From Nevskia sp. (GTDB lineage Bacteria > Pseudomonadota > Gammaproteobacteria > Nevskiales > Nevskiaceae), in contig JADHNH010000001.1 in assembly GCA_016779605.1 (NCBI GenBank), positions 1-64,000 on the forward strand: a stretch of 64,000 nucleotides of DNA, in the 5' to 3' direction. A program made the translations under genes and the position numbers. Positions 5,555 through 44,290 of this stretch are shown in pieces. The notes under the pieces were generated by a model that was not told the DNA's origin, did not search any database, and saw nothing but the letters and a program-made list of their open reading frames with translations. How positions within the stretch are numbered: position 1 is the first letter of the stretch; each line of letters starts with the position of its first letter.

Positions 5555-7183
5555 GTGTTTCTCCTCTTCAAGCGAGGGCTCGTCGCCGTGGCGGCTGCGT
5601 CCCTGGCGGCCTGCGCCAGCATCCCGCAGGACCGCGGCTACGGCGATGTGCGAAATTTGGCCGCAGAGCGGGGCCAGACGCTGCCCGACGACGTCGCCGC
5701 CGATCGCTCGGCGCTGTTGACCGAGATCCTGGCCAAGCCGCTGACCGCCCCGGACGCGGTCCGCGTGGCCTTCATCAACAACCCACGCACCCGCGGCGAA
5801 TACGCCCGTCTCGGCCTGAGCGGCGCCGAGGTCATCCAGGCCGGGCGGCTCAGCAATCCGACGTTCTCCGCCGGCTGGCAGAGTTCCACTCTTGCCGTAG
5901 ACGTCAGCCGCTACGACTTCGGCATGAGCCAGAACTTCGCCGAGCTGCTGCTGCTGCCGGCGCGTCTGCGCTTCAGCAAAGGCGAGTTCGAGCGCGCCAA
6001 GCTCGACACCATCCAGGCCCTGATGGATTTGGCCGCCCAAGTGCAGTCGGCGTACTTTGCGGCCGCCGGCGCCAAGCAGGTAGCGGCGATGCGCAGCACC
6101 ATCGCCACCGCGGCCGGCGCGGCAGCGGAGCTGTCCTCGCGCTTCAAGGCGGCAGGGAATTTCACTGCCCTGGAGTTGGCCATCGACCAGGCGGGAGCGA
6201 GCCAGGCCAGGCTCGACCAGGAGCAGGCCGAAGCCGAGGCGACCCGCGCCGAGAACGTGCTCAATGAGCTGATGGGCCTGGCACCGGATGCGCAATGGGA
6301 AGTCGCGGCCGCCCTGCCCAAGCCGCTGGACCAGGAAGACGACCTCGATGCGCTGCAGAAACTCGCCGCGCTCAGGCGCGCAGACCTCGAATCCGACCGC
6401 CGCGCCGTGGCCCTGCTGGAAGACAGCCTTGGCGTGGCGCGCAGCTACCGCCTGCTCGGCAGTGTCGATGTCGGCGTGCATTACGAGCGCGACACCGACC
6501 GCAACCGGCTGCTGGGGCCCTCGCTGTCGTTGCAGCTGCCGATCTTCAACCAGGGCCAGGCGCCGATGCTGCGCGCCAACGCTCTGCTAGAAGCGGCCCA
6601 TGCCGACCTGCGCGCCAAGGAGCTGGAGGTTTCCAACGGCGTCCAGGCGGCGTATGACCGGCTCACTGCCACGCGCAAGCGCCTGGACCGGCTGGCCACC
6701 GAGACCATTCCGCTGCGCGAAGCCATCGTCGCCCGCACCCAGGAGCGGGTGAACTACATGCTGGTCGGCGTCTTCGACCTGCTGCGGGCGCGGCAGGACG
6801 AATACAGCGCCTACCAGCAATACCTCGAAACGGTGCGCGACTACTGGCAATTCCGGGTTGACCTCCCCCACGCGGTCGGCAGCAACCTGCCGAGCGACCG
6901 CCTGGTCGGCGAGCCGGTGGTTGCGCCCGAGTTCCCGATCGAGCCGAAGGACGACGGCATGGGTCACATGCACCACGGCGGCGGCATGTCGATGCCGGGC
7001 ATGGACATGGGCGGAACGGACCAAGCCCCGCCTCCGGCCGCACCGCATGCTCCCAAGCCGATGCCGTCCTTGCCGGCGCCCAAGCCCCACCACCACGAGC
7101 CGTCCGGGGCTGTTTCTCCGGATGCGCCATCGGCCGGCGCGCCGGGTTCCCCCAATCCGCCGGAACACCACCACGGAGATTGA
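5555..7183 (+). CDS. TolC/OEP-family outer-membrane lipoprotein with Met/His-rich tail
   Basis: 542 residues from GTG at 5555, with ribosome site GGAGG seven bases before. Signal peptide with lipobox LAACAS (Cys about 21). Two outer-membrane-factor repeats can be followed: an early LTAPDAVRVAFINNPR and a late GPSLSLQLPIFNQGQ, the latter being the standard OEP signature, then the long helical RLDRLATETIPLREAIV. The last 80 residues are a Pro/His/Met tail (GHMHHGGGMSMPGMDMGG). Normal OEPs pair with an RND or ABC pump and a membrane-fusion protein; none is nearby, so it may work with host pumps or as a copper-cell-envelope protein in the block. It is two bases upstream of the next gene. Confidence 0.85.
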   Translation: MFLLFKRGLVAVAAASLAACASIPQDRGYGDVRNLAAERGQTLPDDVAADRSALLTEILAKPLTAPDAVRVAFINNPRTRGEYARLGLSGAEVIQAGRLSNPTFSAGWQSSTLAVDVSRYDFGMSQNFAELLLLPARLRFSKGEFERAKLDTIQALMDLAAQVQSAYFAAAGAKQVAAMRSTIATAAGAAAELSSRFKAAGNFTALELAIDQAGASQARLDQEQAEAEATRAENVLNELMGLAPDAQWEVAAALPKPLDQEDDLDALQKLAALRRADLESDRRAVALLEDSLGVARSYRLLGSVDVGVHYERDTDRNRLLGPSLSLQLPIFNQGQAPMLRANALLEAAHADLRAKELEVSNGVQAAYDRLTATRKRLDRLATETIPLREAIVARTQERVNYMLVGVFDLLRARQDEYSAYQQYLETVRDYWQFRVDLPHAVGSNLPSDRLVGEPVVAPEFPIEPKDDGMGHMHHGGGMSMPGMDMGGTDQAPPPAAPHAPKPMPSLPAPKPHHHEPSGAVSPDAPSAGAPGSPNPPEHHHGD

Positions 7184-7185
7184 CC

Positions 7186-7434
7186 ATGAAGCTCATCACC
7201 AAGCTTGCCCTGTACCTCACCCTCACGCTGCCGCTGGCGGCGCAGGCCCACGGCAAAAAGGAACACGCGCCGGACGCCTGCGCGGCGCAGCAAAAGCAGC
7301 AGGAGCAGCAGGAGCAGCAGGACAAGAACTGCGACAAAAGCGGCATGGACATGTCGAAGATGTTGCCCGAAGACCACCAGAAGATGATGCAGCAGTGCCA
7401 GCACGGCTCCGCCCAGCCCAAGGGAGGCTCGTGA
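7186..7434 (+). CDS. small periplasmic Gln/Met-rich protein
   Basis: 82 residues from the ATG at 7186, two bases after the TolC stop. Signal peptide KLITKLALYLTLTLPLAAQA; the mature part starts HGKKEHAPDAC, continues with a Gln/Glu tract (KQQEQQEQQDKN) and ends with MDMSKMLPEDHQKMMQQCQHG. Three Cys, several His and Met suggest copper binding. The stop overlaps the start of the next gene (ATGA), so it is translationally coupled to the multicopper oxidase. No named family is recognised; it may be a metallochaperone for that oxidase (inference from coupling). Confidence 0.7.
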   Translation: MKLITKLALYLTLTLPLAAQAHGKKEHAPDACAAQQKQQEQQEQQDKNCDKSGMDMSKMLPEDHQKMMQQCQHGSAQPKGGS

Positions 7435-8864
7435 TGGTCAGCCGCAGAAGCCTGTTGTCGTATCTGGGCCTGGGCGGCGCCGGCGCCATCGCCGGCGCAT
7501 TCGGCAAGGCCGCCGCCCAGCAGCAGCCGTCCCTGCCCTGCATGAGCATGCCGGGCGATGCGCCCCTTGCGGGCGACGCCCCGCCGGCCAAGGCGGGGCC
7601 GGCCGGCGGCGACCAAGTGCCGGTGCGGACCCCGAACGGCCGCACCCTGCCGTGGAAGATAGTCGGCGGCGCCAAGGAATTCCATCTTGTCGCGGAGGAG
7701 TTGGAGCACGAGTTCGCGCCGGGCTGCAAAGCGAAGTGCTGGGGTTACAACGGCTCCACGCCCGGCCCGACCATCGAGGCGGTGGAGGGCGACCGGGTGC
7801 GCATCCTGGTCACCAACCACCTGAAGGAGTGGACCTCGGTGCACTGGCACGGCGTGATCCTGCCCAACGGCATGGACGGCGTCGGCGGTCTCAACCAGCC
7901 GCATATCAAGCCGGGCGAGACCTATGCCTATGAGTTCACGCTGCGCCAGGCGGGGACCCACATGTACCATCCGCACGCCGACGAAATGGTGCAGATGGCC
8001 TTCGGCATGATGGGATTCTTCATCATCCACCCCAGGGCCGGCTACGACGAACCGGCGGACCGCGACTTCGCGATCATGTTGCACAACTGGGCGCTGCATC
8101 CCGGCACTTACCGGCCGGACCCGGCGGTGATGCAGGACTTCGACCTGTGGACCTTCAACAGCAAGGTCTACCCGGCGACGGCTCCGATCGTCGTGCGCCA
8201 AGGCGACCGCGTGCGCCTGCGCATCGGCAACCTGTCGATGTGGAACCACCCGATCCACCTGCACGGGCACCGCTTCTGGATCACCGGCAGCGACGGCGAC
8301 CGCTGGCCGAAGTCGGCGTGGCGGCCGGAGGTCACCGAGATCATCGGCGTCGGCCAGGTGCGCGATTTCGAGTTCGTGGCGGACAACCCCGGCGACTGGG
8401 CGTTCCACTGCCACATGAGCCACCACACCATGAACGCCATGGGGCACGCCATCCCCAATCCCACCGGCGTCGACCAGAGCGGCGTGGAGAAGCAGATCCG
8501 CTCGATGCTGCCCGGCTACATGGCGATGGGCAAGGGCGGCATGGCCGAGCACGGCGAGCATGTGGCGATGGGCCTGAAAGGGCCGGAAAACACTCTGCCG
8601 ATGATGACCGGCACCGGGTCGTTCGGCTCCATCGAGATGGGCGGCATGTTCTCGGTGCTGAAAGTCCGCGAGGGCCTGGCCGCCGGCGACTACCGAGACC
8701 CGGGCTGGTACCGCCATCCCGAGGGCACGGTCGCCCGGCGGGTGGCCTTCGACCCCGCCTACGCCGTCCCCGACTCGGGAATGGGCGGAATGCAGCACCA
8801 CGGCGGACACCAAATGAAAGACATGCCCGGGATGGATATGAAGGGCATGGACATGGGCGGTTGA
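7434..8864 (+). CDS. multicopper oxidase with C-terminal Met/His tail
   Basis: 476 residues. Twin-arginine-like N-terminus MVSRRSLLSYLGLGGAG, so probable Tat export. Copper motifs in order: HWHG (137-140), HMYHPHAD (176-183), HPIHLHGHRF (272-281) and HCHMSHH with following Met (325-336), which together form the trinuclear and type 1 sites of a laccase-like oxidase. Unusually about 140 residues follow the last copper motif, ending in MQHHGGHQMKDMPGMDMKGMDMGG, likely a Cu-binding bait. It would oxidise Cu(I) in the periplasm. It overlaps the upstream gene by one base and is followed 16 bases later by a cytochrome c that could exchange electrons with it. Confidence 0.92.
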   Translation: MVSRRSLLSYLGLGGAGAIAGAFGKAAAQQQPSLPCMSMPGDAPLAGDAPPAKAGPAGGDQVPVRTPNGRTLPWKIVGGAKEFHLVAEELEHEFAPGCKAKCWGYNGSTPGPTIEAVEGDRVRILVTNHLKEWTSVHWHGVILPNGMDGVGGLNQPHIKPGETYAYEFTLRQAGTHMYHPHADEMVQMAFGMMGFFIIHPRAGYDEPADRDFAIMLHNWALHPGTYRPDPAVMQDFDLWTFNSKVYPATAPIVVRQGDRVRLRIGNLSMWNHPIHLHGHRFWITGSDGDRWPKSAWRPEVTEIIGVGQVRDFEFVADNPGDWAFHCHMSHHTMNAMGHAIPNPTGVDQSGVEKQIRSMLPGYMAMGKGGMAEHGEHVAMGLKGPENTLPMMTGTGSFGSIEMGGMFSVLKVREGLAAGDYRDPGWYRHPEGTVARRVAFDPAYAVPDSGMGGMQHHGGHQMKDMPGMDMKGMDMGG

Positions 8865-8880
8865 GAACCAGGAATTGAAA

Positions 8881-9516
8881 ATGAAAACTCTGAAGATCGT
8901 GGTGGGACTAGTCATACTTGCCTGCGCCGGCGGCGCGCTGTTCGTCTACTCCGGGATGTTCGACGCCGGAGCCGACACGCCGCACAGCCGGCCGGTCTAC
9001 TGGCTGGCACAGACGGTCCGCGAGCGCTCGATCGCGGTCCGCTCGAAAGACATCCAGGTGCCGAACCTGGACGATCCCAAGCTGATTACGGCGGGCGCCA
9101 GCGAGTACGCCGAGATGTGCACGGGCTGCCACCTCGCCCCGGGCATGGACGACAACGAGATGCGTCCGGGCCTGTATCCCTCTCCGCCAAACCTGTCGGA
9201 ACACAGGCACGACCGCGGCGTCAGCGCCGCCCAGGGCAGTGCCGCCCGGCAGTTCTGGATCATCAAGCACGGGTTGAAGATGACCGCGATGCCGGCCTGG
9301 GGCAAAACCCACGACGATCCCACGATCTGGAGCATGGTGGCGTTTCTGCAGAAGCTGCCAGAGCTCACCCAGGAGCAGTACGCGGCAATGACCGAAGACA
9401 GCGAGTCGGCACACGAAGCCTCTGGTCACGTCCATCCGCATGGCCCAGGTACGCAAGAGCGCTCCCGCGATCATGGCGGGATGCCCGGCATGAATATGCC
9501 CGGATCTGTGCGATAA
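8881..9516 (+). CDS. membrane-anchored mono-haem cytochrome c with Met/His tail
   Basis: 211 residues. An N-terminal hydrophobic segment (about 5-25) anchors or exports it. CTGCH at 80-84 binds haem c, and MTAMPAWG (about 135) gives the usual axial Met in a MPAW context. A helical WSMVAFLQKLPELT segment closes the class I cytochrome domain. The last 45 residues (SGHVHPHGPG...HGGMPGMNMPG) repeat the Met/His bait theme of the neighbouring oxidase. Context suggests it carries electrons between the multicopper oxidase and the respiratory chain, but the direction is not known. Confidence 0.88.
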   Translation: MKTLKIVVGLVILACAGGALFVYSGMFDAGADTPHSRPVYWLAQTVRERSIAVRSKDIQVPNLDDPKLITAGASEYAEMCTGCHLAPGMDDNEMRPGLYPSPPNLSEHRHDRGVSAAQGSAARQFWIIKHGLKMTAMPAWGKTHDDPTIWSMVAFLQKLPELTQEQYAAMTEDSESAHEASGHVHPHGPGTQERSRDHGGMPGMNMPGSVR

Positions 9517-9567
9517 AAGCGAGCGCATCTGCCACCTTGCACAGTCATCGACCGACTAGGATTTCTG

Positions 9568-10041
9568 ATGCTTTACTCCACTCGTTTCTTTCGCATACCC
9601 CCGCACCGGTTCCTGGCGGCGCTGCTGCTCGCGTGTCTCAGCGGTTGTGCCCCCAAGGCCGACCCCTCAAAGCCGACTGTCGAGGTCTGGAAAAGTCCGA
9701 CATGCCAATGTTGCTCGAAATGGATACAGCACTTGCGAGACAACGGCTTCAACGTCAACATCCACGGCGAAACGGACCTGGATGCGGTGAAGGCCAGGTT
9801 TGGGGTCCCGGCGGCTCTGGGCTCATGCCACACGGCCCAGGTTGGCGGCTATGTGATCGAAGGCCACGTGCCGGCCGAGGACATCAAGCGCCTGCTTGCG
9901 GAGAAGCCACCGGTCAAGGGCATAGCAGTTCCCGGAATGCCGGTTGGATCACCGGGCATGGAGCAGGGCAGCGAAAAGGAGCCGTACGAAACGCTGTCAT
10001 TCACGCAGGCCGGGGAAACCGCCGTCTATGCGCGACACTGA
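9568..10041 (+). CDS. DUF411 metal-binding lipoprotein
   Basis: 157 residues. Signal peptide with lipobox LSGCAP. The DUF411 domain follows, with the N-terminal metal site SPTCQCCSKW and the second signature GSCHTAQVGGYVIEGHVPAEDIKRLL (written here in pieces: GSCHTA, GYVIEGHVP, IKRLL). The C-terminus has GMPVGSPGMEQ. DUF411 proteins (CopG-like in copper loci) are common in copper-resistance clusters and are thought to handle periplasmic copper. It is the last clearly copper-related gene of this transcription unit and lies 15 bases before the next frame. Confidence 0.9.
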   Translation: MLYSTRFFRIPPHRFLAALLLACLSGCAPKADPSKPTVEVWKSPTCQCCSKWIQHLRDNGFNVNIHGETDLDAVKARFGVPAALGSCHTAQVGGYVIEGHVPAEDIKRLLAEKPPVKGIAVPGMPVGSPGMEQGSEKEPYETLSFTQAGETAVYARH

Positions 10042-11358: not shown

Positions 11359-11409
11359 GAAGTGCCTCTCAGTATCTTTTTCCGGTAATGGCCAAGCCGG
11401 GATGCGCTA

Positions 11410-11525: not shown

Positions 11526-12035
11526 ATGTTCGCAAACCTGAAGATCGCAGCCGTTCCCTTCGTCATGTGTCTCGCCCTGATCCCGCTCGCGTCCAATGCC
11601 GACGACGCGCCCGCCGCACCCGCCGCTGACGCATCGCAGGCCAGCCAGCCGGGCGAAGCCCACAACATGATGGGCCACTCGCCGGCGTCCAAAGAGCACA
11701 CCATGATGAAGGACAAGACGATCCCCATTCATCATACCGGCGATGCGGTCCCGCCCAGCGGTACGCCGGGTGAAGCCCACAACATGATGGGGCACTCCCC
11801 GGGCTCCAAAGAACACATCAAGATGACAGACAAGACGGTGCCGATCCACCACACCGGCGACGAACTGCCGCCGAGCAACACGCCGGCAGAAGATCACATG
11901 ATGATGGATCACTCGCCGGCCGATGGCAAAGGGATGATGCACATGAAGGACAAGAAGATCCCGATTCACCACAGCGAGGGCACCGCTGCCCCGGACGGCA
12001 CGGCGCCGGCTTCCGCCGACAGCGGCAAGAAGTAA
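11526..12035 (+). CDS. exported Met/His protein of three tandem repeats
   Basis: 169 residues with a signal peptide ending at PLASNADDAPA. The mature protein is made of three imperfect copies of about 38-40 residues. Each begins GEAHNMMGHSP or AEDHMMMDHSP, continues with a KEHTMMKDK-like stretch and ends IPIHHTGD..PPS. Every copy offers 3-5 His and 3-6 Met, strongly suggesting copper or silver sequestration in the periplasm. No known family fits. It has its own FNR-type promoter and an intrinsic terminator, so it is a single-gene unit. Only the composition supports the metal role. Confidence 0.75.
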   Translation: MFANLKIAAVPFVMCLALIPLASNADDAPAAPAADASQASQPGEAHNMMGHSPASKEHTMMKDKTIPIHHTGDAVPPSGTPGEAHNMMGHSPGSKEHIKMTDKTVPIHHTGDELPPSNTPAEDHMMMDHSPADGKGMMHMKDKKIPIHHSEGTAAPDGTAPASADSGKK

Positions 12036-12539: not shown

Positions 12540-13535
12540 TTGCCTTTCAATGCCGCACCAGAGCGACCGCGGGCACCCATGCCTGCGACACAGGGCCAGC
12601 AGCGATTGGCGCGGCGCGGGGCGGTTCGTCCTCCGTCCAAGCGTATTCCAGTGCTCTGCGCGCTGGCCACCGCTGTGCTCGCGGGCGCGTTGATTGCACA
12701 GCCAGCGCAAGGGCAAAGCCCGGCCAGCCAGGCTGACGTCCAGCCCCCGCCCATCGGAGGCCCGGACGCTCGCGCCGATCCAGCGCTGGCGGATCAGGTC
12801 GATGCCCTGCGAAAGCAAGTGACGGCGCTGCAGATCCAGATGCAGCGGCAAAGGCACGGCCGTAAGGCTGATCGCGGCGGCCAGTCCGGCATGCCGGCCA
12901 TGACTGGCTCGGGAGCGATGCCAATGCCGCCCGGTCCTTCAAGAGGCATGGGCGAGGATGCGGGAGAAATGGGCCCAATGGGGATGGGAAGCCAGCCCGC
13001 TCCGGGAAACATGCCGATGCCGGCTGCGGCCGGCATGTCCGATCCGCAAAAGATGAGTGGCGGCATGGCCGCGGCGCCGGCCGGGATGGCCGACATGGGC
13101 CAGATGATGGGCATGATGGGCGGGCAGAAGAACGGCGCTGGTGCCTCGACGCCCAGTTCCCTGCCGGGCTTTCCCGGAGCGCCGCACCTGTACCACGTCG
13201 GCGCTGATGGCTTCTTTCTCAACCATCCGCAGCATATCGATCTGACCGCCGAGCAGCAGTCCGCCCTCGGCAAGCTCCAGGAGACAGCCCTGCTCGATCG
13301 CGCATCTGCGCAGCGCACGATCGACGAAGCGGAGCAGCAGCTGTTTCTGCTGACCGGCGCCGACCAGCCCGACGCCGCGCAGATCGAGGCGCAAGTGCAC
13401 TCGATCGAGGCGCTGCGGGCGCAGAAACGACTGGCGTACATCCGGGCGGTCGGACAAGCCGCACAGATTCTCAGTGACGACCAGCGACGCGCCCTGCTCG
13501 CGGCCCACGGCTGGTCTGGCACATCGGCGAACTGA
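12540..13535 (+). CDS. Spy/CpxP-like periplasmic protein with Met-rich linker
   Basis: 331 residues from TTG at 12540, nine bases after GGAG; an in-frame ATG at 12579 is the alternative. Hydrophobic export segment IPVLCALATAVLAGALI (about 37-53). A short coiled coil follows (ADQVDALRKQVTALQIQMQRQR), then about 100 residues very rich in Met, Gly and Pro (e.g. MADMGQMMGMMGGQK). The C-terminal 110 residues, HLYHVGADGFFLNHPQHIDLT and the helices behind it, resemble the all-helical LTxxQ/Spy fold of periplasmic metal-stress proteins (here LTAEQQSAL). A paralogue lies at 37336-38028. It leads the redox operon behind two FNR-type boxes and probably senses or binds copper. Confidence 0.75.
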   Translation: MPFNAAPERPRAPMPATQGQQRLARRGAVRPPSKRIPVLCALATAVLAGALIAQPAQGQSPASQADVQPPPIGGPDARADPALADQVDALRKQVTALQIQMQRQRHGRKADRGGQSGMPAMTGSGAMPMPPGPSRGMGEDAGEMGPMGMGSQPAPGNMPMPAAAGMSDPQKMSGGMAAAPAGMADMGQMMGMMGGQKNGAGASTPSSLPGFPGAPHLYHVGADGFFLNHPQHIDLTAEQQSALGKLQETALLDRASAQRTIDEAEQQLFLLTGADQPDAAQIEAQVHSIEALRAQKRLAYIRAVGQAAQILSDDQRRALLAAHGWSGTSAN

Positions 13536-13542
13536 GCGCGCC

Positions 13543-15402
13543 ATGACCATCGGAACGAAGACTCTGCGCCCGGTTCGTTCGAGCACCCCTGCGAGTGTCC
13601 GGATCGCCCTGCTGGCTGCTGCTGCCTTGCTTGCGCTGCCGGTATACGCCCAAACCGCGGATGAACATGCAGCCCACCATCCCCCGCCGGACGCTGCGGC
13701 GGCCGGCGCTTCGATGGGTGCCACTACTGCGCCGGCGGGGCCGGCGGCCGCCCCGATGGGCGGGATGGACATGGGCTCGATGATGAAGCAGATGGGGGCT
13801 CCCGCGGCCAAGGAGCTTTATCCGTCGCTGATGGAGCTGCCCGACCTGCCGCTGGAAAAGCGCGCCGAAGTGCAGCAGCGCGCGCACCAGCGCATGACGG
13901 CTGGCACCGACATCATGAGCGCTTCTTTGGGAGACCTTTCCACTGCGGCCGGGCGCGATGACTACACCGCCATGCAGGATGCCACTCAGCGTCTGCGGGA
14001 GGGTCTGGCCCAATTCGAAAGTGGGCTGGCGGCCCACCGCGCGCTGGCCGAAGGCGCGGCGCCGCGCAGCGTGGCGATGCAATGGTTCAAGCGCGACATG
14101 AACCTGCTGCCGCGGTTTCCAGCCGAGCAAGCGCACGGCTTCTTCGGGTTGTCCGCATTCCACTACTTCACCATGCTTATGCTGGCCGCGTTCGCGCTGA
14201 CGCTGGTTGCCATCTACTTTGCCCGCATGCGCCGCGTCAGCTCCCTCCTGGCACAGATCAAGAGCGGCGGCAAGCTCGTCGCCGTACCGCCGGCGGCGGT
14301 GCCAACGGCAGTGTCATCCTCGGAACCTGCAGCGACATCCTCCGCACCCCGCGCTGTGGCAACCACCACCGGGAGCTGGTCGGGGCAACTGCGCGTCGCA
14401 CGCATCTTCCAGGAGACGGCCGACGTCAAGACCTTCCGCCTCGCGCCCATGTCCGGCACCGAGCTGCCGTTCGTGTTCGAGCCGGGACAGTTCCTGACCG
14501 TTGGCGTCATCGTCGACGGCAAGGTTCTGAAGCGCTCCTATTCGATCGCCTCCTCGCCATGCTGCCATGGGTGGTGCGAAATCACGGTGAAGCACGCGCG
14601 CGGAGGCGCGGTGTCCGGTCACCTGCACGAACAGGTGAAAGTCGGTGATCTTCTGGACGCGTCAGGACCCTACGGGCGCTTCACCTTCCGCGGCCAGGAA
14701 GCGCCGAGCGTGGTCCTGATCGCCGGCGGCGTCGGTGTCACGCCGCTGATGAGTGCGATCCGCTATCTGACGGACCAGAGCTGGACCGGGGAGATCTTCT
14801 TGTTCTACGCCTGCGCCCGGCTCGACGCGGTGATCTTCCGCGAAGAGCTGGACTACCTGGTCAAGCGCCATCCCAACCTGCACCTGACCTTGGTGCTCAA
14901 CGAGGAGCCCTCGGCGGAGTGGTCGGGGGAGCGCGGCTTCGTGACTTCGGACCTGCTGGCGCGCACGGTGCCCGACCTCACGTCGCGACGCGTGCACCTG
15001 TGCGGCCCGCCGCCGATGATGGAAGCGGTTCGCAAGGCGCTGACCGAGGCTGGTTTGCCGCCAGAGCAAGTCAAGTCCGAATTGTTCCTGACACCGGAAG
15101 TCAAACACCCGGCGACACCCGCTGCGGAGCCACCGGCGGCTGCGGCAACATGCTCCTTCGCGCGCTCCGGCAAGAAGGGCACATTGCCGCCGGACCTCAC
15201 CGTGCTCGACGTTGCCGAGGCAACCGGCGTGGTCATTGACTCCTCCTGCCGGCAGGGCTTCTGCGGCACCTGCAAGGTCAAGCTGCTCGACGGCCAGGTC
15301 ACCATGGCAGTCGAGGACGGCCTGACACCGGCCGATAAGGCGGCGGGGCTGATTCTGGCCTGTCAGGCGAAGGCGCAGCACGACGTGACAGTAGACGCCT
15401 GA
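13543..15402 (+). CDS. membrane-spanning NAD(P)H/FAD/2Fe-2S reductase with Met-rich periplasmic part
   Basis: 619 residues in one frame. Signal-like hydrophobic segment 20-36; periplasmic stretch 37-205 with HAAHHPPPD and a Met cluster (MGGMDMGSMMKQMG, 72-85) followed by helices; transmembrane helix about 207-227. The cytosolic half then carries a ferredoxin-reductase FAD domain (RSYSIASSP, 331-339), an NAD domain (GGVGVTP, 395-401; CGPPPMM, 487-493) and a plant-type 2Fe-2S domain with Cys 569, 574, 577 and 607. It could pass electrons from NAD(P)H to the membrane cytochrome encoded next. The joining of a Met/His-rich periplasmic part to such a reductase is unusual. The start is the ATG at 13543; a cytoplasmic orientation of the FAD half is inferred. 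Confidence 0.85.
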   Translation: MTIGTKTLRPVRSSTPASVRIALLAAAALLALPVYAQTADEHAAHHPPPDAAAAGASMGATTAPAGPAAAPMGGMDMGSMMKQMGAPAAKELYPSLMELPDLPLEKRAEVQQRAHQRMTAGTDIMSASLGDLSTAAGRDDYTAMQDATQRLREGLAQFESGLAAHRALAEGAAPRSVAMQWFKRDMNLLPRFPAEQAHGFFGLSAFHYFTMLMLAAFALTLVAIYFARMRRVSSLLAQIKSGGKLVAVPPAAVPTAVSSSEPAATSSAPRAVATTTGSWSGQLRVARIFQETADVKTFRLAPMSGTELPFVFEPGQFLTVGVIVDGKVLKRSYSIASSPCCHGWCEITVKHARGGAVSGHLHEQVKVGDLLDASGPYGRFTFRGQEAPSVVLIAGGVGVTPLMSAIRYLTDQSWTGEIFLFYACARLDAVIFREELDYLVKRHPNLHLTLVLNEEPSAEWSGERGFVTSDLLARTVPDLTSRRVHLCGPPPMMEAVRKALTEAGLPPEQVKSELFLTPEVKHPATPAAEPPAAAATCSFARSGKKGTLPPDLTVLDVAEATGVVIDSSCRQGFCGTCKVKLLDGQVTMAVEDGLTPADKAAGLILACQAKAQHDVTVDA

Positions 15403-15405
15403 GCC

Positions 15406-16113
15406 ATGCGCGAACACGACCGCGCCGTCGCCAGCGGCATCATCGGCCTGATGCTGCTGCTCTGGCTCGGCTTCCTGATGCACCGCTCGCCCGATTTCGC
15501 CGGCAGCGCGTGGGGTGGAGTTTTCGCGGTCTCCGGCGCAGTCCTGATGCTGGTGCCGCTGGTGTACTCGGTGGTGAAGCGCGTCGGCCCGCTGCGGCGC
15601 AGGCTGGCTTCAGGCGGGCGTATGCGCGTGTTCCTGGTCTGGCACATCTATGCGGGGATCGCCGCTGCGATTCTGGCGTTGATCCATACCGGACACAAGT
15701 TCCAAAGCCCCTTGGGTATCGCACTGACCGGCTTGATGCTGATCGTCGCGCTGAGCGGCTTCGTGGGGCGCTATCTGCTGGGATACCTCAGCGAGGACAG
15801 CCGCTCCAAGCGGGATCAGCTCGATGTACTGCACACAGAAGTCCAGCGCCTCACGGCCTACCTGCAGAGCCCCCCAACGCCGGCCGCCGCCAGCGGTGCC
15901 GTGCTGTTTGCCGGAAGGATGCCGGAATCACGGGCACTGCCGTTGATTGAAGCCGTCGCCGACCTGGAATACGCCTTGCGCGTAGAGGATCGAGTGCGCA
16001 CGGTGTTCGGGCACTGGCTCAAGTTCCATCTGGCGATTTCCGCGATGCTGTATGGATTGCTGGCCTTGCACGTGTGGGCGGCCATTGAGTTCGGCCTGCG
16101 GTGGTTCGGATGA
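15406..16113 (+). CDS. cytochrome-b-like membrane protein
   Basis: 235 residues, about five transmembrane segments (about 10-28, 38-56, 75-95, 100-122 and 205-230). Paired His residues occur in helices (FLVWHIYAGI and LIHTGHKF; KFHLAISAM and LLALHVW), the spacing expected of a di-haem cytochrome b of the ferric-reductase/b561 type. It begins three bases after the reductase stop and overlaps the heptahaem gene by four bases, so the three are translated together. Likely role: carry electrons across the inner membrane from the reductase to the periplasmic multihaem protein. The haem sites are inferred. Confidence 0.7.
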   Translation: MREHDRAVASGIIGLMLLLWLGFLMHRSPDFAGSAWGGVFAVSGAVLMLVPLVYSVVKRVGPLRRRLASGGRMRVFLVWHIYAGIAAAILALIHTGHKFQSPLGIALTGLMLIVALSGFVGRYLLGYLSEDSRSKRDQLDVLHTEVQRLTAYLQSPPTPAAASGAVLFAGRMPESRALPLIEAVADLEYALRVEDRVRTVFGHWLKFHLAISAMLYGLLALHVWAAIEFGLRWFG

Positions 16114-16907
16114 ATCGCAACGTGGTTTTGTCGGTCGTGCTCGCGTTCCTGGTCGGCGCGCTGACGGTGGCGATTGCCTGGCGATTTCCGGAACTCCGCG
16201 CTAAGGCGTTCTGGCAGAGGCAAGCAAGCCCCGGCCCACTCTCCGCCGCGCATGCGTTCCTGGACCATCAATGTTCCGCCTGCCACACGCCGGTCAAAGG
16301 TGCCGAGGCGACCAAGTGCATCGTGTGCCATGCCAACAATACGGCCCTGCTCCAGCGGCAAGCCACCGCCTTCCACGCGAGCATCGGCGCGTGTACCCAG
16401 TGCCATGCCGAGCACCAGGGCCGCGTCATTGCGACCGCAGTGATGGACCATCAAAAGCTTGCGCTCATCGGCCTGCACCAGCTTGAGCAACAGGGGGCCG
16501 GAAGCGATGCCCGTCTGCAGCATCACGAGCTGGTCGCCTGGCTGGACTCGCGCGATCCGGTCGCCGCTGTCGCTGCGAATCCGCATCTGACACCTTTGGA
16601 AGGGACACTGGACTGCGGCAGCTGTCACGCCACCCGCGACCGGCACTGGGGGCTCTTCGGCAAGGATTGCGCCCAGTGCCACGCCACGACGCAGTGGAGC
16701 ATCGCCGAATTCCGGCATCCGCCGCCCACTTCGATGGACTGTGCCCAATGCCACCAGGCGCCCCCGAGCCATTACATGGAACACTTCAAGATGGTGTCGA
16801 TGACGGTGGCCGGCCAGGAGAACGTGCAGGTAACCCAGTGTTACCGCTGCCACCAGACCACAGCGTGGAACGACATCCGCTCCGTCGGGCTTTACAAGCA
16901 TCATTGA
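16110..16907 (+). CDS. seven-haem periplasmic cytochrome c
   Basis: 265 residues. An N-terminal uncleaved-looking anchor (about 5-24) is followed by seven CxxCH sites: CSACH 55, CIVCH 70, CTQCH 95, CGSCH 169, CAQCH 187, CAQCH 211 and CYRCH 244. Extra His residues (HHELV, FRHPPP, HYMEH) can serve as distal ligands. The layout resembles the small multihaem c7/c3-like families used in nitrate, metal or quinol redox. Start and stop overlap with the upstream gene as ATGA. It is the periplasmic end of the putative chain reductase, cytochrome b, cytochrome c. The terminal acceptor (copper, iron, hydrogenase partner) is unknown. Confidence 0.9.
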   Translation: MNRNVVLSVVLAFLVGALTVAIAWRFPELRAKAFWQRQASPGPLSAAHAFLDHQCSACHTPVKGAEATKCIVCHANNTALLQRQATAFHASIGACTQCHAEHQGRVIATAVMDHQKLALIGLHQLEQQGAGSDARLQHHELVAWLDSRDPVAAVAANPHLTPLEGTLDCGSCHATRDRHWGLFGKDCAQCHATTQWSIAEFRHPPPTSMDCAQCHQAPPSHYMEHFKMVSMTVAGQENVQVTQCYRCHQTTAWNDIRSVGLYKHH

Positions 16908-16922
16908 GTCGGAACGGTCGCC

Positions 16923-17348
16923 ATGAACTCGTTTCGCAGCTTGATGGAGTGGGTCGGCATCGCTTTCGACGCCACCGGCGTCGCCGTCATCGCCATCGGT
17001 GCGCTGGCGGCGACGTGGCGCAGGCGGGTGCGGACGTCAGAGCCCGGCGCCTCGGGCGTTCGCCAGTTCCGCCAGGAGTTCGGCGGCGCCATCGTGCTGG
17101 GCCTGGAATTCCTCGTCGCGGGCGACATTATCCGCACGGTGGTGGTGGCGCCGACCCTGGAGAACGTCGCAGTGCTGGCCATCATCGTGCTGGTGCGTAT
17201 CGTGCTGAGCCTGGCCTTGCAGATCGAAATCGAGGGGCGCTGGCCCTGGCAGGGGCACGGCTTCGGGGCTGGCGGCGCCGCGCCTTGTACACAATCCACC
17301 GCCGCTACAGCGGCTCCGCGAGCTCACCCAGAGGGAACGCCACCTTGA
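16923..17348 (+). CDS. DUF1622 membrane protein
   Basis: 141 residues with three hydrophobic segments (about 7-28, 55-75 and 80-102). The middle part, RQEFGGAIVLGLEFLVAGDIIRTV, is the recognisable DUF1622 core. The C-terminal 35 residues are Gly/Ala/Pro-rich and probably cytosolic. It starts 15 bases after the heptahaem cytochrome and ends the operon. Its role is unknown. Confidence 0.8.
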   Translation: MNSFRSLMEWVGIAFDATGVAVIAIGALAATWRRRVRTSEPGASGVRQFRQEFGGAIVLGLEFLVAGDIIRTVVVAPTLENVAVLAIIVLVRIVLSLALQIEIEGRWPWQGHGFGAGGAAPCTQSTAATAAPRAHPEGTPP

Positions 17349-17449: not shown

Positions 17450-19138
17450 ATGGAGTCCTTTCTCGACCGTTCGCGCATCGCCTACTTCACCATGGAAGCC
17501 GCCGTGCATCCGCAGATTCCCACCTCCAGTGGCGGCCTGGGCATTTTGGCGGGCGATGCATTGCGCACGGCGGCAGACCTGGATCTGCCGATGGTCGGGG
17601 TGACGCTGGTCAGCCGCGCCGGCTACTTCCGGCAACACTTGTCCCCGGAAGGCCGCCAGTCCGAGTCCGCGGAGGATTGGGAGCCGGGCCGCTGGTGCCG
17701 CCGCGCCGGCGCCAAGACCGTGGTGCCGATCGAGGGCCGCGAGGTCTGGGTTGGGGCCTGGCTCCATGTGCTCGAAGGCAATCGCGGCGGACGCGAGCCG
17801 GTGCTTTTTCTCGATACCGATCTGCCCGAGAACGATCCCGCCGACCGGACAATCACCGCGCAACTCTACGGCGGCGACAGCACCTACCGGCTGAAGCAGG
17901 AGATCGTGCTCGGCATCGGCGGCGTGCGCCTGCTCCGCGGCTTGGGCTTTCGCATCCACAAGTACCACCTGAACGAGGGCCACGCGGCGCTGCTGGCACT
18001 GGAACTGCTGCGTGCCACGGTCCCGCCTAGCGCCGAGTTGCGCGCCGGGGAGCCGCAGTACAACGTGTTGCAGGTGCGCCACCGCTGCAGCTTCACCACC
18101 CACACGCCGGTCGGGGCCGGGCACGACGAGTTTGCCTATGATCTGGTCGCGCGCGTGCTGGGGCCGTTCGTTGAGGATGGCGTCCTGCGCCGGCTTGCCG
18201 GCGAGGCCGCGCTGGATATGACGCACCTCGCGCTGAACCTCAGCGGCTACGTCAACGGCGTCGCCAAGTTGCACGCAGAGACTTCGCGGCGCATGTACCC
18301 GGGCTACGCGGTGCGGGCAGTGACCAACGGCGTGCACGCCCACACCTGGACCGCGCCGAGTTTTGCGGCGCTCTATGATCACCACCTGCCGGGGTGGTGC
18401 CACGAGCCCGAGGTCTTGGTCCGTGTGCGCTGCTGCCTGTCCGACGAAGAAACCTGGCAGGCGCACGCAGCCGCCAAGCGGCGGATGCTGGAACACCTGC
18501 ACAACGCCTTCGGCGTGGCGCTGGCCCCCGAACTGCCCACAATCGGCTTCGCCCGGCGCATGACCTCGTACAAGCGCCCCGAACTCCTGTTCTCCGACCT
18601 GGAGCGGCTGCGGGCCATCGCCCAGCGCTGGCCATTCCAGATCGTATGGGGCGGCAAGGCGCACCCGCGTGACGAGGACGGTAAGCGGCGCATCGAGCAG
18701 GTACACGCGGCGCTGCGCTCGCTCGCGCCCCAGGTTCGCGGGTTCTACGTGCCCAACTACGATATGAGCATGGCGCAGATCCTGATCCCCGGTGTGGACC
18801 TGTGGCTGAACACGCCGCAGCGGCCGCTGGAGGCGTCCGGCACCAGTGGCATGAAGGCGGCCCTCAACGGCGTACCGAGCCTCAGCGTGCTGGACGGATG
18901 GTGGGTGGAGGGCTGTGTCGAAGGCATGACCGGCTGGGCCATCGGGGACGCTGGCGACAGCCCTGCGGAAAGCGAGGCGGAGGCGTTGTACCGCAAGCTC
19001 GAACAGCGGGTGCTGCCGCTGTTCCACCAGGACCGCGCCGGCTGGATCGCGGTGATGAAGGGTGCCATCACCCTGAACGGCTCTCTGTTCAACAGCCACC
19101 GCATGATGCGGCGCTACGCCGCCGAAGCCTACATGTGA
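17450..19138 (+). CDS. glgP: alpha-glucan (glycogen/maltodextrin) phosphorylase, short form
   Basis: 562 residues, ribosome site AGGAGC before the ATG. The N-terminus AYFTMEAAVHPQIPTSSGGLGILAGD is the short-form phosphorylase opening; NEGHAALLALELLR and FTTHTPVGAGHDEF follow. The pyridoxal-phosphate loop is EASGTSGMKAALNGVP near residue 460, with the Lys present. It releases glucose 1-phosphate from storage glucan, saving ATP. It is shorter than the classical 800-residue enzymes. In many proteobacteria this gene is expressed at low oxygen, which matches the FNR boxes nearby, though no box lies directly in front of it. Confidence 0.92.
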   Translation: MESFLDRSRIAYFTMEAAVHPQIPTSSGGLGILAGDALRTAADLDLPMVGVTLVSRAGYFRQHLSPEGRQSESAEDWEPGRWCRRAGAKTVVPIEGREVWVGAWLHVLEGNRGGREPVLFLDTDLPENDPADRTITAQLYGGDSTYRLKQEIVLGIGGVRLLRGLGFRIHKYHLNEGHAALLALELLRATVPPSAELRAGEPQYNVLQVRHRCSFTTHTPVGAGHDEFAYDLVARVLGPFVEDGVLRRLAGEAALDMTHLALNLSGYVNGVAKLHAETSRRMYPGYAVRAVTNGVHAHTWTAPSFAALYDHHLPGWCHEPEVLVRVRCCLSDEETWQAHAAAKRRMLEHLHNAFGVALAPELPTIGFARRMTSYKRPELLFSDLERLRAIAQRWPFQIVWGGKAHPRDEDGKRRIEQVHAALRSLAPQVRGFYVPNYDMSMAQILIPGVDLWLNTPQRPLEASGTSGMKAALNGVPSLSVLDGWWVEGCVEGMTGWAIGDAGDSPAESEAEALYRKLEQRVLPLFHQDRAGWIAVMKGAITLNGSLFNSHRMMRRYAAEAYM

Positions 19139-21714: not shown

Positions 21715-21770
21715 TGTCTCCTCGGACGCGGATGGCGTCCAATCCCTGAACGACTCCGGAAGGTATGCAG

Positions 21771-23474
21771 ATGAACACCGATGCGCCATTGATTCTCGGC
21801 CACCACGGCGTCTCCCGCCGCCGCTTCGTGCAGGGCATCGCCGCAGCGGGGGCGCTCGGTGCACTCGCCCTGCCGAAGGGCGCCGCCTGGGCGGTGGCAC
21901 CTAGCGGCAGCCAAGCCGAGCTGCGCGGCACCGAATTCGATCTGGTGGTGGCTCCGCTGCCGGTCAACTTCACCGGCAGCCCCGCCGTGGGCACGGCCAT
22001 CAACGGCCTGCTTCCGGCGCCGGTGCTGCGGGTGCGCGAAGGCGATACCGTCACCCTGCGCGTCACTAACCGGCTCAGCGAGCCGACCGCAATCCATTGG
22101 CACGGCATCATCCTGGACGCGGCGATGGACGGCGTGCAGGGCATGAGCTATCCGGGCATCGCGCCGGGCGAAACCTTCACTTACCGCTTCACCGTGAAGC
22201 AGAGCGGCACCTACTGGTATCACGCTCACACCCTGCACGAACAGACCGGCCTCTACGGCGCGCTGATCGCCGAGCCGCGGCACCCGGACCCGATCGTCGC
22301 CGACCGCGACTACACCGTGATGCTCAGCGACTGGACCGACGAGGACCCACTGGCCGTCTACCAACACCTCAAGAAGATGGGCGCGTACTACAACTACGGC
22401 CAGCCGACGGCCGGGGATTTCTTCGCCGACGCGTCCCGCATGGGTGTCGCAAAGGCGATGGAGAAGCGCAAGATGTGGAACGCCTCGCGCATGAATCCCA
22501 CCGACTTCAGCGACGTGTCCGGCGTGACCTACACCTACCTGATGAACGGCACCGCGCCCGCCGGCAACTGGACCGCTCTGGCCCGTGCCGGCGAGCGCGT
22601 GCGCCTGCGTTTCGTCGGCGCCGGCACGGCGACATTCTTCGACGTGCGCATTCCTGGGTTGAAGCTCACGGTGGTCGCCACTGACGGCCAGCGGGTGGAG
22701 CCGGTCGAGGTCGACGAATTCCGCATTTCCCCGGGTGAGACTTACGACGTCATCGTCCAGCCGCCGGACGACCGCGCCTATACCATCCTCGCCCAGTCGA
22801 TGGACCGCACCGGCTTTGCGCGCGGCACTCTGGCGCCGCGCGCCGGCATGCAGGCCGAAGTGCCCCAGCCCGACGCCCCGGTGTGGCTGACCGAGGTCGA
22901 CATGATGGGCGCGATGGCCGGGATGGCAGACATGCCGGGCATGGACATGGGCCCGCCCGCCCGGCATGCGCGAACCGAGTACGGCCCCGGCATCGACATG
23001 CGCGTGGACTATCCGCGCACCAATCTCGACGATCCCGGCATCGGCCTGCGCGACAACGGGCGGCGCGTGCTGACCTATGCCGACCTGCACACCGTCGGCG
23101 GCGCGCTCGACCCGCGCACCGCCGGCCGCGACATCGAACTGCACCTGACCGGCAACATGGACCGCTTCATTTGGTCGATCGACGGCGTCAAGCTCACCGA
23201 CGCCAAGCCGATCCATTTCCGTTCCGGCGAGCGGCTGCGCGTCATCCTGCACAACGACACCATGATGACCCATCCCATGCACCTCCACGGCATGTGGAGC
23301 GAGCTGGAGGCGCCGGATGGCACGTTCCAGGCGCGCAAGCACACCATCGCCGTGCAGCCGGCGCAGCGCGTCAGCTTTGCCGTAACGGCCGACGCGATCG
23401 GACGCTGGGCCTTCCACTGCCATTTGCTGTACCACATGGCGGCCGGGATGTTCCGTGAAGTGGTGGTGGCATGA
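21771..23474 (+). CDS. copA: CopA/PcoA-type multicopper oxidase
   Basis: 567 residues. Two nearby Mets (21765, 21771); GGAAGG fits the second better. Tat signal SRRRFVQGIAAAGALGALA. Copper motifs: HWHG, YWYHAHT, HPMHLHG and C-terminal HCHLLYHMAAGMF, all intact. A Met cluster MGAMAGMADMPGMDM lies about residues 380-394, similar to the Met-rich domain of PcoA. It oxidises Cu(I) to Cu(II) and binds extra copper in the periplasm. It overlaps copB by four bases. Canonical members of the family are about 600 residues. Confidence 0.95.
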   Translation: MNTDAPLILGHHGVSRRRFVQGIAAAGALGALALPKGAAWAVAPSGSQAELRGTEFDLVVAPLPVNFTGSPAVGTAINGLLPAPVLRVREGDTVTLRVTNRLSEPTAIHWHGIILDAAMDGVQGMSYPGIAPGETFTYRFTVKQSGTYWYHAHTLHEQTGLYGALIAEPRHPDPIVADRDYTVMLSDWTDEDPLAVYQHLKKMGAYYNYGQPTAGDFFADASRMGVAKAMEKRKMWNASRMNPTDFSDVSGVTYTYLMNGTAPAGNWTALARAGERVRLRFVGAGTATFFDVRIPGLKLTVVATDGQRVEPVEVDEFRISPGETYDVIVQPPDDRAYTILAQSMDRTGFARGTLAPRAGMQAEVPQPDAPVWLTEVDMMGAMAGMADMPGMDMGPPARHARTEYGPGIDMRVDYPRTNLDDPGIGLRDNGRRVLTYADLHTVGGALDPRTAGRDIELHLTGNMDRFIWSIDGVKLTDAKPIHFRSGERLRVILHNDTMMTHPMHLHGMWSELEAPDGTFQARKHTIAVQPAQRVSFAVTADAIGRWAFHCHLLYHMAAGMFREVVVA

Positions 23475-24469
23475 CCGCTCATCACAGCTTAATTCGGCAA
23501 TCCGCGGCGAACTTGCTGTGTGGCTTTGTCCTGCTGGCTTCCACCTCCGCGTTCGGCCAGGACGAGCACTCAGGCATGGCTGGGATGTCAATGCAGGCGC
23601 CTGCCACCCCGGAAGCATCGGCGCCGCCGGCTCCCTCCGCAACCAGCGACATGAACGGCATGGACATGGGTGCGACGGGCACCACGGCAACTACGCCCCC
23701 TCCCGCAAAGGGTCAAGGCGCCATGGACATGGGTTCAATGCAAGGCGGCCAAGCGCCGCCCGACGCGCGCGATCCCAACGCCTATGCCGACGGCTACGAC
23801 TACGGCTCGATGCCGGGCATGGAGCAGGCCGACCGGATCATGGTCAACAAGCTCCTGGTCGATCAGCTGGAGTTCGTGCACAGCCGCGAAGGCAACGGCG
23901 TCGCCTGGGACATCCACGACTCGTACGGCGGCGACCAGCAGAAGCTGCTGGTGCGCACGGAAGGCGCCGTCGCCAAGAGTTCCGCCGATTTCACCACCGG
24001 CGCCGAAGCCCTATGGTGGCGCGGCTGGACGCCGTTCTGGGGGACGGTGCTTGGATTGCGCCAGGAGTTCGGACCGGGCGCACATACCCAGGCGGCGTTC
24101 GGCGTCGAGGGGCTGGCACCGTACTGGTTCGACATGGAAGCCACTGCTTATGTCGCCGAAGACGGCCGGCTTTCGGCCCGACTGAAGGGCGGCTACGACG
24201 TGCTGATCACCAACCGGTTGGTCCTCACGCCGGAAGCGGAAACGAATCTGTTCAGCCGCAGCGACGACAAGCGTGGCGTGGGCGCGGGTGTGGCCAACCT
24301 CGAACTGAGCTTGCGGCTGCGCTACGAGTTCAGCCGCAAGTTTGCCCCATACATCGGCGTGGACTGGGACCGCGCCGTGGGCGGCACCGTCGGTCGCCGC
24401 TTGGGCGAGGGCACCGGCGAGCCGGTGAGCAATACCCAGCTCGTCGCCGGCGTGCGGATGTTGTGGTAA
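23471..24469 (+). CDS. copB: CopB/PcoB outer-membrane copper protein
   Basis: 332 residues with an N-terminal signal peptide ending at SAFGQ. The first 110 mature residues are Met/Gly/Pro-rich (GMAGMSMQ, MNGMDMG, MDMGSMQG). The CopB barrel follows, starting near MVNKLLVDQLEFVHS and ending in NTQLVAGVRMLW with a C-terminal aromatic-type membrane anchor. It is translated with copA (ATGA overlap) and acts with it in periplasmic copper handling. CopCD partners are absent. Confidence 0.92.
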   Translation: MTAHHSLIRQSAANLLCGFVLLASTSAFGQDEHSGMAGMSMQAPATPEASAPPAPSATSDMNGMDMGATGTTATTPPPAKGQGAMDMGSMQGGQAPPDARDPNAYADGYDYGSMPGMEQADRIMVNKLLVDQLEFVHSREGNGVAWDIHDSYGGDQQKLLVRTEGAVAKSSADFTTGAEALWWRGWTPFWGTVLGLRQEFGPGAHTQAAFGVEGLAPYWFDMEATAYVAEDGRLSARLKGGYDVLITNRLVLTPEAETNLFSRSDDKRGVGAGVANLELSLRLRYEFSRKFAPYIGVDWDRAVGGTVGRRLGEGTGEPVSNTQLVAGVRMLW

Positions 24470-27753: not shown

Positions 27754-29506
<1,753 letters not shown>

Positions 29507-41872: not shown

Positions 41873-44290
41873 TCAAAGCCGCGCTGCGCGCAGGCGGAGC
41901 GCGTTGGTGATGACCGACACCGAACTGAGGCTCATCGCCGCGCTGGCAATGATCGGCGACAACAGCACGCCGGAGTACGGATACAGCACCCCGGCGGCGA
42001 TCGGCACGCCCAGCGCGTTGTAGCCGAACGCGAACAGCAGGTTCTGGCGGATGTTGCGCATCGTGCGGTGCGACAGCCGCACCGCCTTGGCCAAGCCGCG
42101 CAGGTCGCCCTTGAGCAGGGTCACGCCGGCGGACTGCATCGCCACGTCAGTGCCGGTGCCCATGGCGATTCCGACCTGGGCCTGCGCCAGCGCCGGGGCG
42201 TCGTTGACGCCGTCGCCGGCCATGGCGACGATGCGGCCCTGGCTCTGCAAGCGCTTGACCACCGAAGCCTTGTCGGCCGGAAGCACGTCCGCAACGACTT
42301 CGTCCAACGCGAGGCTGTCGCCCACCACCTTGGCGGTGTGGGCATTGTCGCCGGTGAGCATGATGATGCGGATGCCCTGCGCTTTGAGCGCCTGTACGGC
42401 CTCCGGCGTGGTGGCCTTGATCGCGTCGGCGACGCCCAGCAGGCCCGCAGGCTTGCCGTCGATGGCGACGAGGATCACCGTCTGGCCCTTGGCGCGGTAA
42501 GTTTCCGCTTCGCGCATCAGTTCGTCGGTTACGATGCCGTCCCGCTGCAGCAGGTGCATGTTGCCGACCAACACCCTGCGGCTTTCGATCTGCCCCCAGA
42601 CTCCCAGGCCGGGATCGGATTCGAAGTTCTGCACGGCGGGCAGCGGACTGGTAGCGCGTGCTTTGGCGCCTTCCACGATGGCCCGCGCCAGGGGGTGTTC
42701 ACTGGAAGATTCCGCGGCCGCCGCCAGGCGCAGCAGTTCGCTTTCGGCAATGTCCCCAAGCGGCACGACAACCTGCAGGCTGGGCTTCCCCTCGGTCAGC
42801 GTCCCGGTCTTGTCCACCACCAAGGTATCGACCCTTTCCAGCGTCTCCAGCGCCGCGGCATCCTTGATCAAGACGCCCTCGTGGGCACCGCGGCCGACGC
42901 CAACCATGATCGACATCGGCGTGGCCAGGCCCAGCGCACAGGGGCAGGCAATGATCAGCACCGACACGGCCACGAGCAGCGCATGCGCCAAGGCCGGCGG
43001 CGGCCCCCAGATGGCCCATACCGCCGCTGCCGTCAGGGCGATGCCCACCACCGCCGGCACGAACCACGCCGACACCTGGTCGGCCAGGCGCTGCACCGGC
43101 GCCCGCGAGCGCTGCGCCTCCGCCACCATGTGCACGATCTGCGACAGCATGGTTTCTGCGCCGACCCGCTCGGCCTGGATCAATAAGCTGCCGGAGCCGT
43201 TGACGGTGCCGCCGGTGACCTGATCGCCGGCCTTCTTGTGCTGTGGGTCGGGCTCGCCGGTGAGCATCGATTCGTCGACATGGCTCGATCCCTCCACCAC
43301 CTTGCCGTCCACGGGTACTTTCTCACCGGGCCGCGCCCGCAGCCGGTCGCCGACCTGGACCGAATCCAGGGGCACGTCGGATTCCTGGCCCTGTGCGTCG
43401 AGCCGATGCGCGATCTTCGGCGCGAGCTGCAGCAGCGAGCGGATCGCGCTGGAAGTTTGCGAACGGGCGCGCAGCTCCATCACCTGGCCCAGCAGCACCA
43501 GGGTGACGATCACAGCGGCGGCCTCGAAGTACAGCGGTGGCGCGCCATTGGCAAGCTTGAAGGAGGCCGGCAGCGCCTGCGGGATCAGCAGCGCGACGAC
43601 CGAGAACAACCAGGCCGCCCCGGTGCCCAACGCGATCAGGCTGAACATATTGAGGCTGCGGTTGACCACCGACTGCCAGCCGCGCACGAAGAACACCGAG
43701 CCGCCCCACAGCACCACCGGGCTGGCCAGTGCGAACTCGGCCCAGGCGACGGGACGTTCGCCGAGCAGCATCATCGGATCTAACCCCCTGAACATCTCGC
43801 CGACCAAGGACCACAGCAAGGGTACGGTCAGCGCGGCGGAGATCCAGAAGCGCCGGGTCATGGCGCGCAGCTCGGCCGCCTCGGCGGCGCCTTCCGATGC
43901 GCCGACCGGCTCCAATGTCATGCCGCAGATCGGGCAATTGCCGTGGTGGTCCAGCCGGACCTGCGGGTGCATCGGGCAGGTGTAGATCGTGCCCGCCGGA
44001 GCCGCGGCTTTGGCGGACACGGGCTTGGGCAGCGGCTTGGCGTACTGCTCAGGTGCCGCGATGAACTTGTCCTGGCACTTCGTACTGCAGAAGTAATAGG
44101 TGCGGCCCGCGTAATCTTGGTGACGTGCCGAGGCGGGATTCACGGCCATACCGCAAACCGGATCGCGTTCTCCGGCTCCGTCGTGTGTTTCATGGTGGTC
44201 GTGGCCGGCGTGCTCGTGATGAGCGCGCGGCGCAGGTGGCTCCTCCCGTGCCATGCTCATCCCTGGCTGGTCCCTGCTGGCTGTGGTCAT
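41873..44290 (-). CDS. copper-exporting P1B-type ATPase with YHS and metal-binding domains
   Basis: 805 residues from ATG at 44290. N-terminal His-rich run ([15 protein letters not shown]), YHS domain ([10 protein letters not shown]) and a heavy-metal-binding domain ([19 protein letters not shown]) replace the usual CxxC HMA domain. Transport signatures: [31 protein letters not shown] and [11 protein letters not shown]. Length matches CopA/CtpA-like pumps. It expels Cu(I) from the cytosol. Its promoter carries a MerR-family operator, so it is probably induced by a MerR/CueR protein that is not encoded here. Confidence 0.95.

Follow-up and report, generated by a model that had tools for sequence, protein, structure and literature searches.

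What do five tightly packed genes behind a pair of FNR-type boxes do for a Nevskia sp.? The genes lie on contig JADHNH010000001.1, in the 64,000-nucleotide stretch that we analyzed as a whole and refer to as the window. All five open frames proposed by an earlier sequence-only reading are present, as is the double FNR box upstream of them (Table 1). They encode a Spy-like periplasmic protein, a membrane-anchored NAD(P)H reductase, a cytochrome b-like protein, a heptahaem c-type cytochrome and a DUF1622 protein, and are spaced, in order, by 7, 3, -4 and 15 bases. The tight spacing therefore stands, with a single ATGA overlap (cytochrome b/heptahaem c) where two had been claimed. Started from the ATG at 12579, the Spy-like protein has a cleaner signal peptide, and this start is likelier than 12540. 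We propose that the three middle genes may form a transmembrane electron conduit of mobile copper-resistance islands, leading from NAD(P)H to periplasmic copper, a proposal in which belief and doubt weigh about equally for us.

Table 1. Features of the operon and of the copper genes around it, in window positions.
Feature	Position	Strand	Remarks
FNR-type box 1, TTGACCCAGATCAA	12421..12434	+	upstream of operon; exact match to TTGAYNNNNRTCAA
FNR-type box 2, TTGACGCAGGTCAA	12461..12474	+	40 bp downstream of box 1
Spy/CnrX-like periplasmic protein gene	12579..13535	+	longest frame from 12540; Met-rich middle; optional companion
Membrane-anchored NAD(P)H reductase gene	13543..15402	+	619 residues
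Cytochrome b-like protein gene	15406..16113	+	five transmembrane segments predicted
Heptahaem c-type cytochrome gene	16110..16907	+	N-terminal membrane anchor; seven CXXCH
DUF1622 small membrane protein gene	16923..17348	+	Pfam 3.8e-22; three hydrophobic stretches; optional companion
Copper block: outer-membrane efflux protein, two-domain multicopper oxidase (frame 6858-8864), cytochrome c, DUF411	5555..10041	+	
CopA multicopper oxidase and CopB	21765..24469	+	FNR-type box at 21701-21714
Copper-type P-type ATPase with YHS and HMBD metal-binding domains	41873..44290	-	

Is this gene order peculiar to one genome? A search with the reductase recovered a unit smaller than five genes from other genomes: the order reductase, cytochrome b, heptahaem c occurs at about 50 loci in several phyla, while the Spy-like and DUF1622 genes proved optional. 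This three-gene order is conserved far beyond chance, and its few exceptions are truncated or interrupted loci. The median gap between the reductase and cytochrome b genes is one base, and in most of the 50 loci the cytochrome b and heptahaem c genes overlap by 4 bases. Genome loci that share the N-terminal head of the reductase come from Methylocaldum, Nitrospira, Acidobacteria, Phycisphaerae, Polyangia, Verrucomicrobia, Acetobacteraceae, Reyranella and Sphingomonas; core loci on plasmids add Bacteroidetes (Spirosoma, Pontibacter), Legionella, Alteromonas, Methylophaga, Variovorax, Bradyrhizobium and Caulobacter. The order thus recurs on many sequenced plasmids and chromosomes and is not rare. 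Only 2 of 369 sampled genomes of the window's own class carry the core, which marks it as an accessory, mobile trait.

The reductase had been described as joining a Met/His-rich periplasmic part to complete FAD, NAD and 2Fe-2S domains in one chain, and the Pfam domains (FAD_binding_6 at residues 284-381, NAD_binding_1 at 392-498, Fer2 at 549-611) and conserved motifs agree. From its N-terminus the protein has a signal sequence, a His/Met-rich linker (on average 16% His+Met), a CnrX-like helical hairpin, one transmembrane helix (209-227) and then the redox domains; the single membrane helix of the earlier description is right if the signal sequence is counted separately. Among 48 homologues the FAD, NAD and cluster motifs are conserved, the cluster cysteines at 0.98. 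In all 48, Lys and Arg are more numerous after the transmembrane helix than before it, so the FAD/NAD/2Fe-2S part is predicted to be cytosolic. The topology check proposed earlier thus gives a clear answer by positive-charge bias: the redox half, FAD domain included, should face the cytosol. With FAD, NAD and a C-terminal 2Fe-2S cluster in a single chain, the protein resembles the ring-hydroxylase-type reductases Hcr, GbcB and PaaE, from which it differs in carrying an N-terminal signal, a periplasmic head and a transmembrane anchor. Its best NCBIfam matches are GbcB (228.4 bits), Hcr (199) and PaaE (182), far under the equivalog cut-offs of GbcB, Hcr and PaaE (500, 383 and 420.8, respectively).

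Could electrons cross the membrane through the next protein? The cytochrome b-like protein is predicted to have five transmembrane segments with a consistent positive-inside pattern, N-terminus in and C-terminus out. H80, H94, H208 and H222 are invariant or nearly so; on helices 3 and 5 they make up pairs with a spacing of 14 residues, which are kept in at least 50 of 51 members of this copper family and in all 13 members of a sister family described below. The sequence-only reading had likened the paired His to a cytochrome b; two His pairs 14 residues apart are the classic transmembrane dihaem pattern, and H80/H208 and H94/H222 are candidate ligands of two transmembrane haems. Two more histidines, H26 and H97, are invariant in the 51 copper-family members and predicted to lie at the periplasmic edge.

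The window's cytochrome b has no family match in Pfam or NCBIfam. Across the family, weak matches appear to DUF4405 (13/27) and Ferric_reduct (PF01794; 5/27, best E 0.003); none to Ferric_reduct passes the cut-off, and the window's own protein gives none. When sequence profiles of the reductase head and the cytochrome b were compared with solved structures, nothing meaningful came up, and the matches to protein A we set aside as probable chance helix matches.

A profile search with the cytochrome b in the window's class did find relatives of about 300 residues, with E values of 1e-16 to 1e-19 per genome. This sister cytochrome b, a distant relation, adjoins a 12-15-haem cytochrome in 12 of 13 loci, and in L132 and L140 it stands beside an NAD(P)H/FAD/4Fe-4S flavoprotein with Pyr_redox and 4Fe-4S motifs. 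The set was seen in several other genomes of the class (L130, L132, L133, L136-L138, L140), and we found no family name for its ~300-residue cytochrome b. Like the core, it combines the homologous cytochrome b with an adjacent multihaem c; unlike the core, it has a different type of flavoprotein, a different haem number and neither H26 (1/13) nor H97 (0/13). An unnamed cytochrome b family is common to the copper core and to a second flavoprotein-multihaem set. Since two unrelated flavin/iron-sulfur modules stand beside one cytochrome family, we argue that this cytochrome swaps electrons with a flavin protein, and the absence of H26 and H97 from the sister family argues that these residues serve something specific to the copper family.

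The third core protein matches Pfam cytochrome c3/c7-type families. All seven CXXCH motifs expected of it are present, as they are in every intact copy scored, and nine further conserved histidines would be enough for bis-His ligation. The companions are looser. The Spy-like protein reaches 1.7e-5 against Metal_resist, its 25.4 bits falling below the cut-off of 29.2; its HxYH...H..H motif (H216, H219, H229, H232) is conserved at 0.88-1.00 in 16 homologues. At other loci the gene upstream of the core passes the LTXXQ Pfam model, and a Spy-like or LTXXQ protein gene precedes the core in many copies. DUF1622 lies near 12 of 34 core clusters, directly downstream of the core in nine loci (L014-L017, L044, L102, L106, L115 and L116).

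What would such a chain reduce? We scored the neighborhoods for a set of copper markers (multicopper oxidases, CopB, Cu-ATPases, DUF411, DUF2933 and four-helix copper proteins). They occur at 25 of 35 genome core loci and 13 of 16 plasmid loci, against none of 45 control loci, which hold related reductases without the head from other taxa and are not a matched contrast. After clustering, the comparison is 27 of 34 core clusters with 0/45 controls (Fisher 5e-15). On plasmids of Sphingobium, Caulobacter, Bradyrhizobium, Variovorax, Methylophaga, Spirosoma and Acetobacter the core stands beside CopA, CopB, Cu-ATPase, DUF411 or copper-binding proteins. In Sphingobium SYK-6 the order runs MerR-type regulator, core, DUF1622, four-helix copper protein, CopA, CopB; in an acidobacterial locus (L012), core, CopA, CopB, two-component system; in Bradyrhizobium BTAi1, Spy, core, CopA-like, CopB; and in Methylophaga, core, DUF1622, DUF411, Cu-ATPase and ccm genes. 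Caulobacter offers another clear copper-flanked core.

The Nevskia window has the same kind of surroundings (Table 1). A tyrosine integrase lies at 1109-2386 and VirB4/VirB9/VirB10-type transfer genes at 55301-62852. With its copper genes between these two, the window resembles an integrative conjugative copper island, and we consider it likely to be an integrative conjugative element. Other genes near the operon deserve mention in their own right. At 11622-12035, within frame 10869-12035, imperfect Met/His repeats (xHNMMGHSP...) follow an FNR-type box at 11410, and their protein is likely copper-binding. Right after CopB, 24489-25163 encodes a small NicO/DsbD-like membrane protein with both Pfam scores below cut-off. 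A 433-residue protein at 10057-11358 has no Pfam or NCBIfam match; its plasmid homologues are annotated 'type II restriction endonuclease', and homologues lie near 12 of 51 core loci (7/34 clusters, 44-69% identity) and near none of the 45 controls.

The window is also rich in FNR-type sites. It holds 11 perfect TTGAYNNNNRTCAA sites (at 11410, 12421, 12461, 21059, 21171, 21701, 25178, 37239, 46173, 46198 and 49414) where shuffled sequences lead one to expect 0.01; their density is about ten times that of the rest of the genome, and several lie upstream of operons, copper genes included. Genome-wide there are 77 such sites compared with 6 for a reversed control, indicating that an FNR-type regulon exists in this genome, and two genomic FNR-like regulators (L118, L121) have an N-terminal Cys cluster. 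The window would thus be a mobile copper island under FNR control. Genes for alpha-glucan phosphorylase, DUF1622 and pentose-phosphate enzymes recur near the core (window 17450-19138; L102, L104, L105, L110), possibly as a supply of NAD(P)H.

These observations bear on a different function as well. A low-oxygen redox valve, part of an FNR-controlled survival island, would dump excess NAD(P)H on a periplasmic acceptor other than copper, such as an oxidase, a peroxidase or another cytochrome; the double box, the site counts in window and genome, the Cys-cluster regulators and the alpha-glucan phosphorylase and pentose-phosphate genes near several copies would all suit it. We think it rather unlikely, because FNR-type boxes upstream of the core are uncommon at other loci, for which reason we also dropped FNR control as a general trait of the core, and because copper genes lie near most copies.

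Returning to the copper conduit, we envisage the following path. In the membrane-tethered reductase, cytosolic NAD(P)H would reduce first the FAD, next the 2Fe-2S cluster. Electrons would cross the membrane via two stacked haems b, an inner one at H80/H208 and an outer one at H94/H222, and pass to the membrane-anchored periplasmic heptahaem c. Copper could be reduced from the heptahaem protein, or directly by the outer haem at a possible H26/H97 metal site, Cu(II) becoming Cu(I) for efflux and perhaps going on to Cu(0). The His/Met-rich, CnrX-like head of the reductase and the Spy-like protein may bind or report metal. As an electron conduit, the core appears well supported by its domains and topology, by the conserved ligands, by the linkage of the three genes and by the copper genes around them. 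The contacts between partners within the chain we infer. Electron flow would be outward, to judge from NAD(P)H thermodynamics and from the fact that most copies have no hydrogenase linked to them. The sequence-only reading had led electrons from NAD(P)H to a periplasmic multihaem protein and on to copper, iron or another acceptor: domains, topology and linkage bear out the chain, and on the acceptor, gene context indicates copper rather than iron.

The copper defences known from the bacterial periplasm work by oxidation, binding or export of the metal. More tentatively, the core may be a dedicated NAD(P)H-driven transmembrane copper reductase of plasmids and conjugative elements, with H26/H97 as its metal-reducing site by the outer haem b and with the heptahaem c storing electrons or giving them a second way out; this we find possible and somewhat doubtful. 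If true, such a reductase would be a further periplasmic resistance arm beside multicopper-oxidase oxidation and Cus-type efflux, and could act when the oxygen-dependent CopA cannot. If real, a mobile module that crosses phyla and delivers reducing power from the cytosol to copper in the periplasm would be a new arm of metal resistance. It would account for a group of genes now called 'hypothetical' on many copper plasmids, and it offers a three-gene cassette for tests of metal reduction and recovery.

Several observations weigh against copper reduction by this chain. The neighboring CopA is a presumed Cu(I) oxidase, which would run the reaction the other way. In Shewanella in vivo, full reduction of Cu(II) was beyond the c-type cytochromes but was achieved by a periplasmic hydrogenase (PMC12410911), which also shows that a respiratory enzyme can reduce periplasmic copper. 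The AlphaFold model of the cytochrome b is of moderate confidence and Foldseek found no solved relative for it (its matches, to coiled-coil and ABC-transporter structures, were discarded as chance), so the haem positions rest on His spacing. The likeness of the reductase head to CnrX is weakly indicated: in a fold search with a model of the head this nickel/cobalt sensor came at ranks 1, 5 and 7, with E of about 0.1-0.2 and probabilities of 0.92-0.96. Finally, two core clusters have a [NiFe] hydrogenase nearby, so other partners are possible.

A further alternative is an inward route, in which periplasmic H2 oxidation by a [NiFe] hydrogenase would feed the heptahaem c, the cytochrome b and then the reductase, making NAD(P)H. 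Hydrogenase genes directly follow the core on plasmids of Alteromonas and Glaciecola, a [NiFe] hydrogenase lies 10 kb from the operon in the window, and c3-type cytochromes are known hydrogenase partners. Such a linkage is confined to 2 of 34 core clusters, a frequency on which we rejected hydrogenase partnership as the general function of the core, and Orf1 and Cyt, encoded in the Alteromonas hydrogenase cluster, were dispensable for hydrogenase activity in E. coli (PMC3102683). We regard the inward route as improbable. The hydrogenase region of the window (26776-36770) encodes small and large subunits with hyp-type genes downstream, and at 29503-30366 a 287-residue protein with one CXXCH and of no known family.

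Another way to spend electrons in the periplasm is repair. In MsrPQ a membrane haem b protein is paired with a cytosolic flavin reductase that uses NAD(P)H, and by analogy the core could supply a reductase that mends copper-oxidised periplasmic proteins, in keeping with the Spy-like chaperone gene of many core operons. The annotated plasmid tables link no repair enzyme gene to the core, and the seven haems of the cytochrome point to a broad relay of electrons more than to a single docking enzyme; we give this idea little credence.

How, then, does the copper conduit relate to systems already described? Our searches of open-licence papers for heptahaem proteins with copper resistance, for DUF1622 and for cupric reductases with multihaem proteins returned no description of the core, in line with the earlier reading, which knew of no named system of this composition. 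The nearest published genes are orf1 and cyt of the Alteromonas macleodii hynSL hydrogenase cluster, which, by their place in the gene order, match genes 3 and 4 of the operon (L101); they were studied only as hydrogenase accessories, and the reductase was not included (PMC3102683). The Alteromonas metal-resistance plasmid island that carries the core has been published with its hydrogenase and metal tolerance (PMC4781885).

With CnrX, Spy and ZraP, the periplasmic metal-binding proteins, the locus shares a Spy-like gene, and CnrX is among the best fold matches of the reductase head; it differs from CnrX systems in its weak scores and in that no CnrYH-type signalling partners were seen in the operon. 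With CymA/MtrCAB it has in common a multihaem c that would move electrons outward from the inner membrane, and it differs in that an NAD(P)H reductase replaces the quinol oxidase. The window has no outer-membrane porin with a decahaem partner; porin-like genes stand beside some core copies only (L009, L057, L101). In the ferric reductase/NADPH oxidase superfamily (FRE, NOX, STEAP-like metalloreductases), electrons go from NAD(P)H through FAD to a pair of transmembrane haems with bis-His ligation, the His pairs lying ~14 residues apart, and reduce a substrate outside the membrane, a plan that the core would share. The core departs from FRE/NOX in having its flavin module on a separate single-transmembrane chain with a 2Fe-2S cluster, a cytochrome predicted to cross the membrane five times, and an added heptahaem c. 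To judge from its sequence, it seems to be a new form of NAD(P)H-driven transmembrane metalloreductase that is coupled with a heptahaem cytochrome and tied to mobile copper resistance, and probably represents an undescribed way of pushing the cell's electrons onto periplasmic copper.

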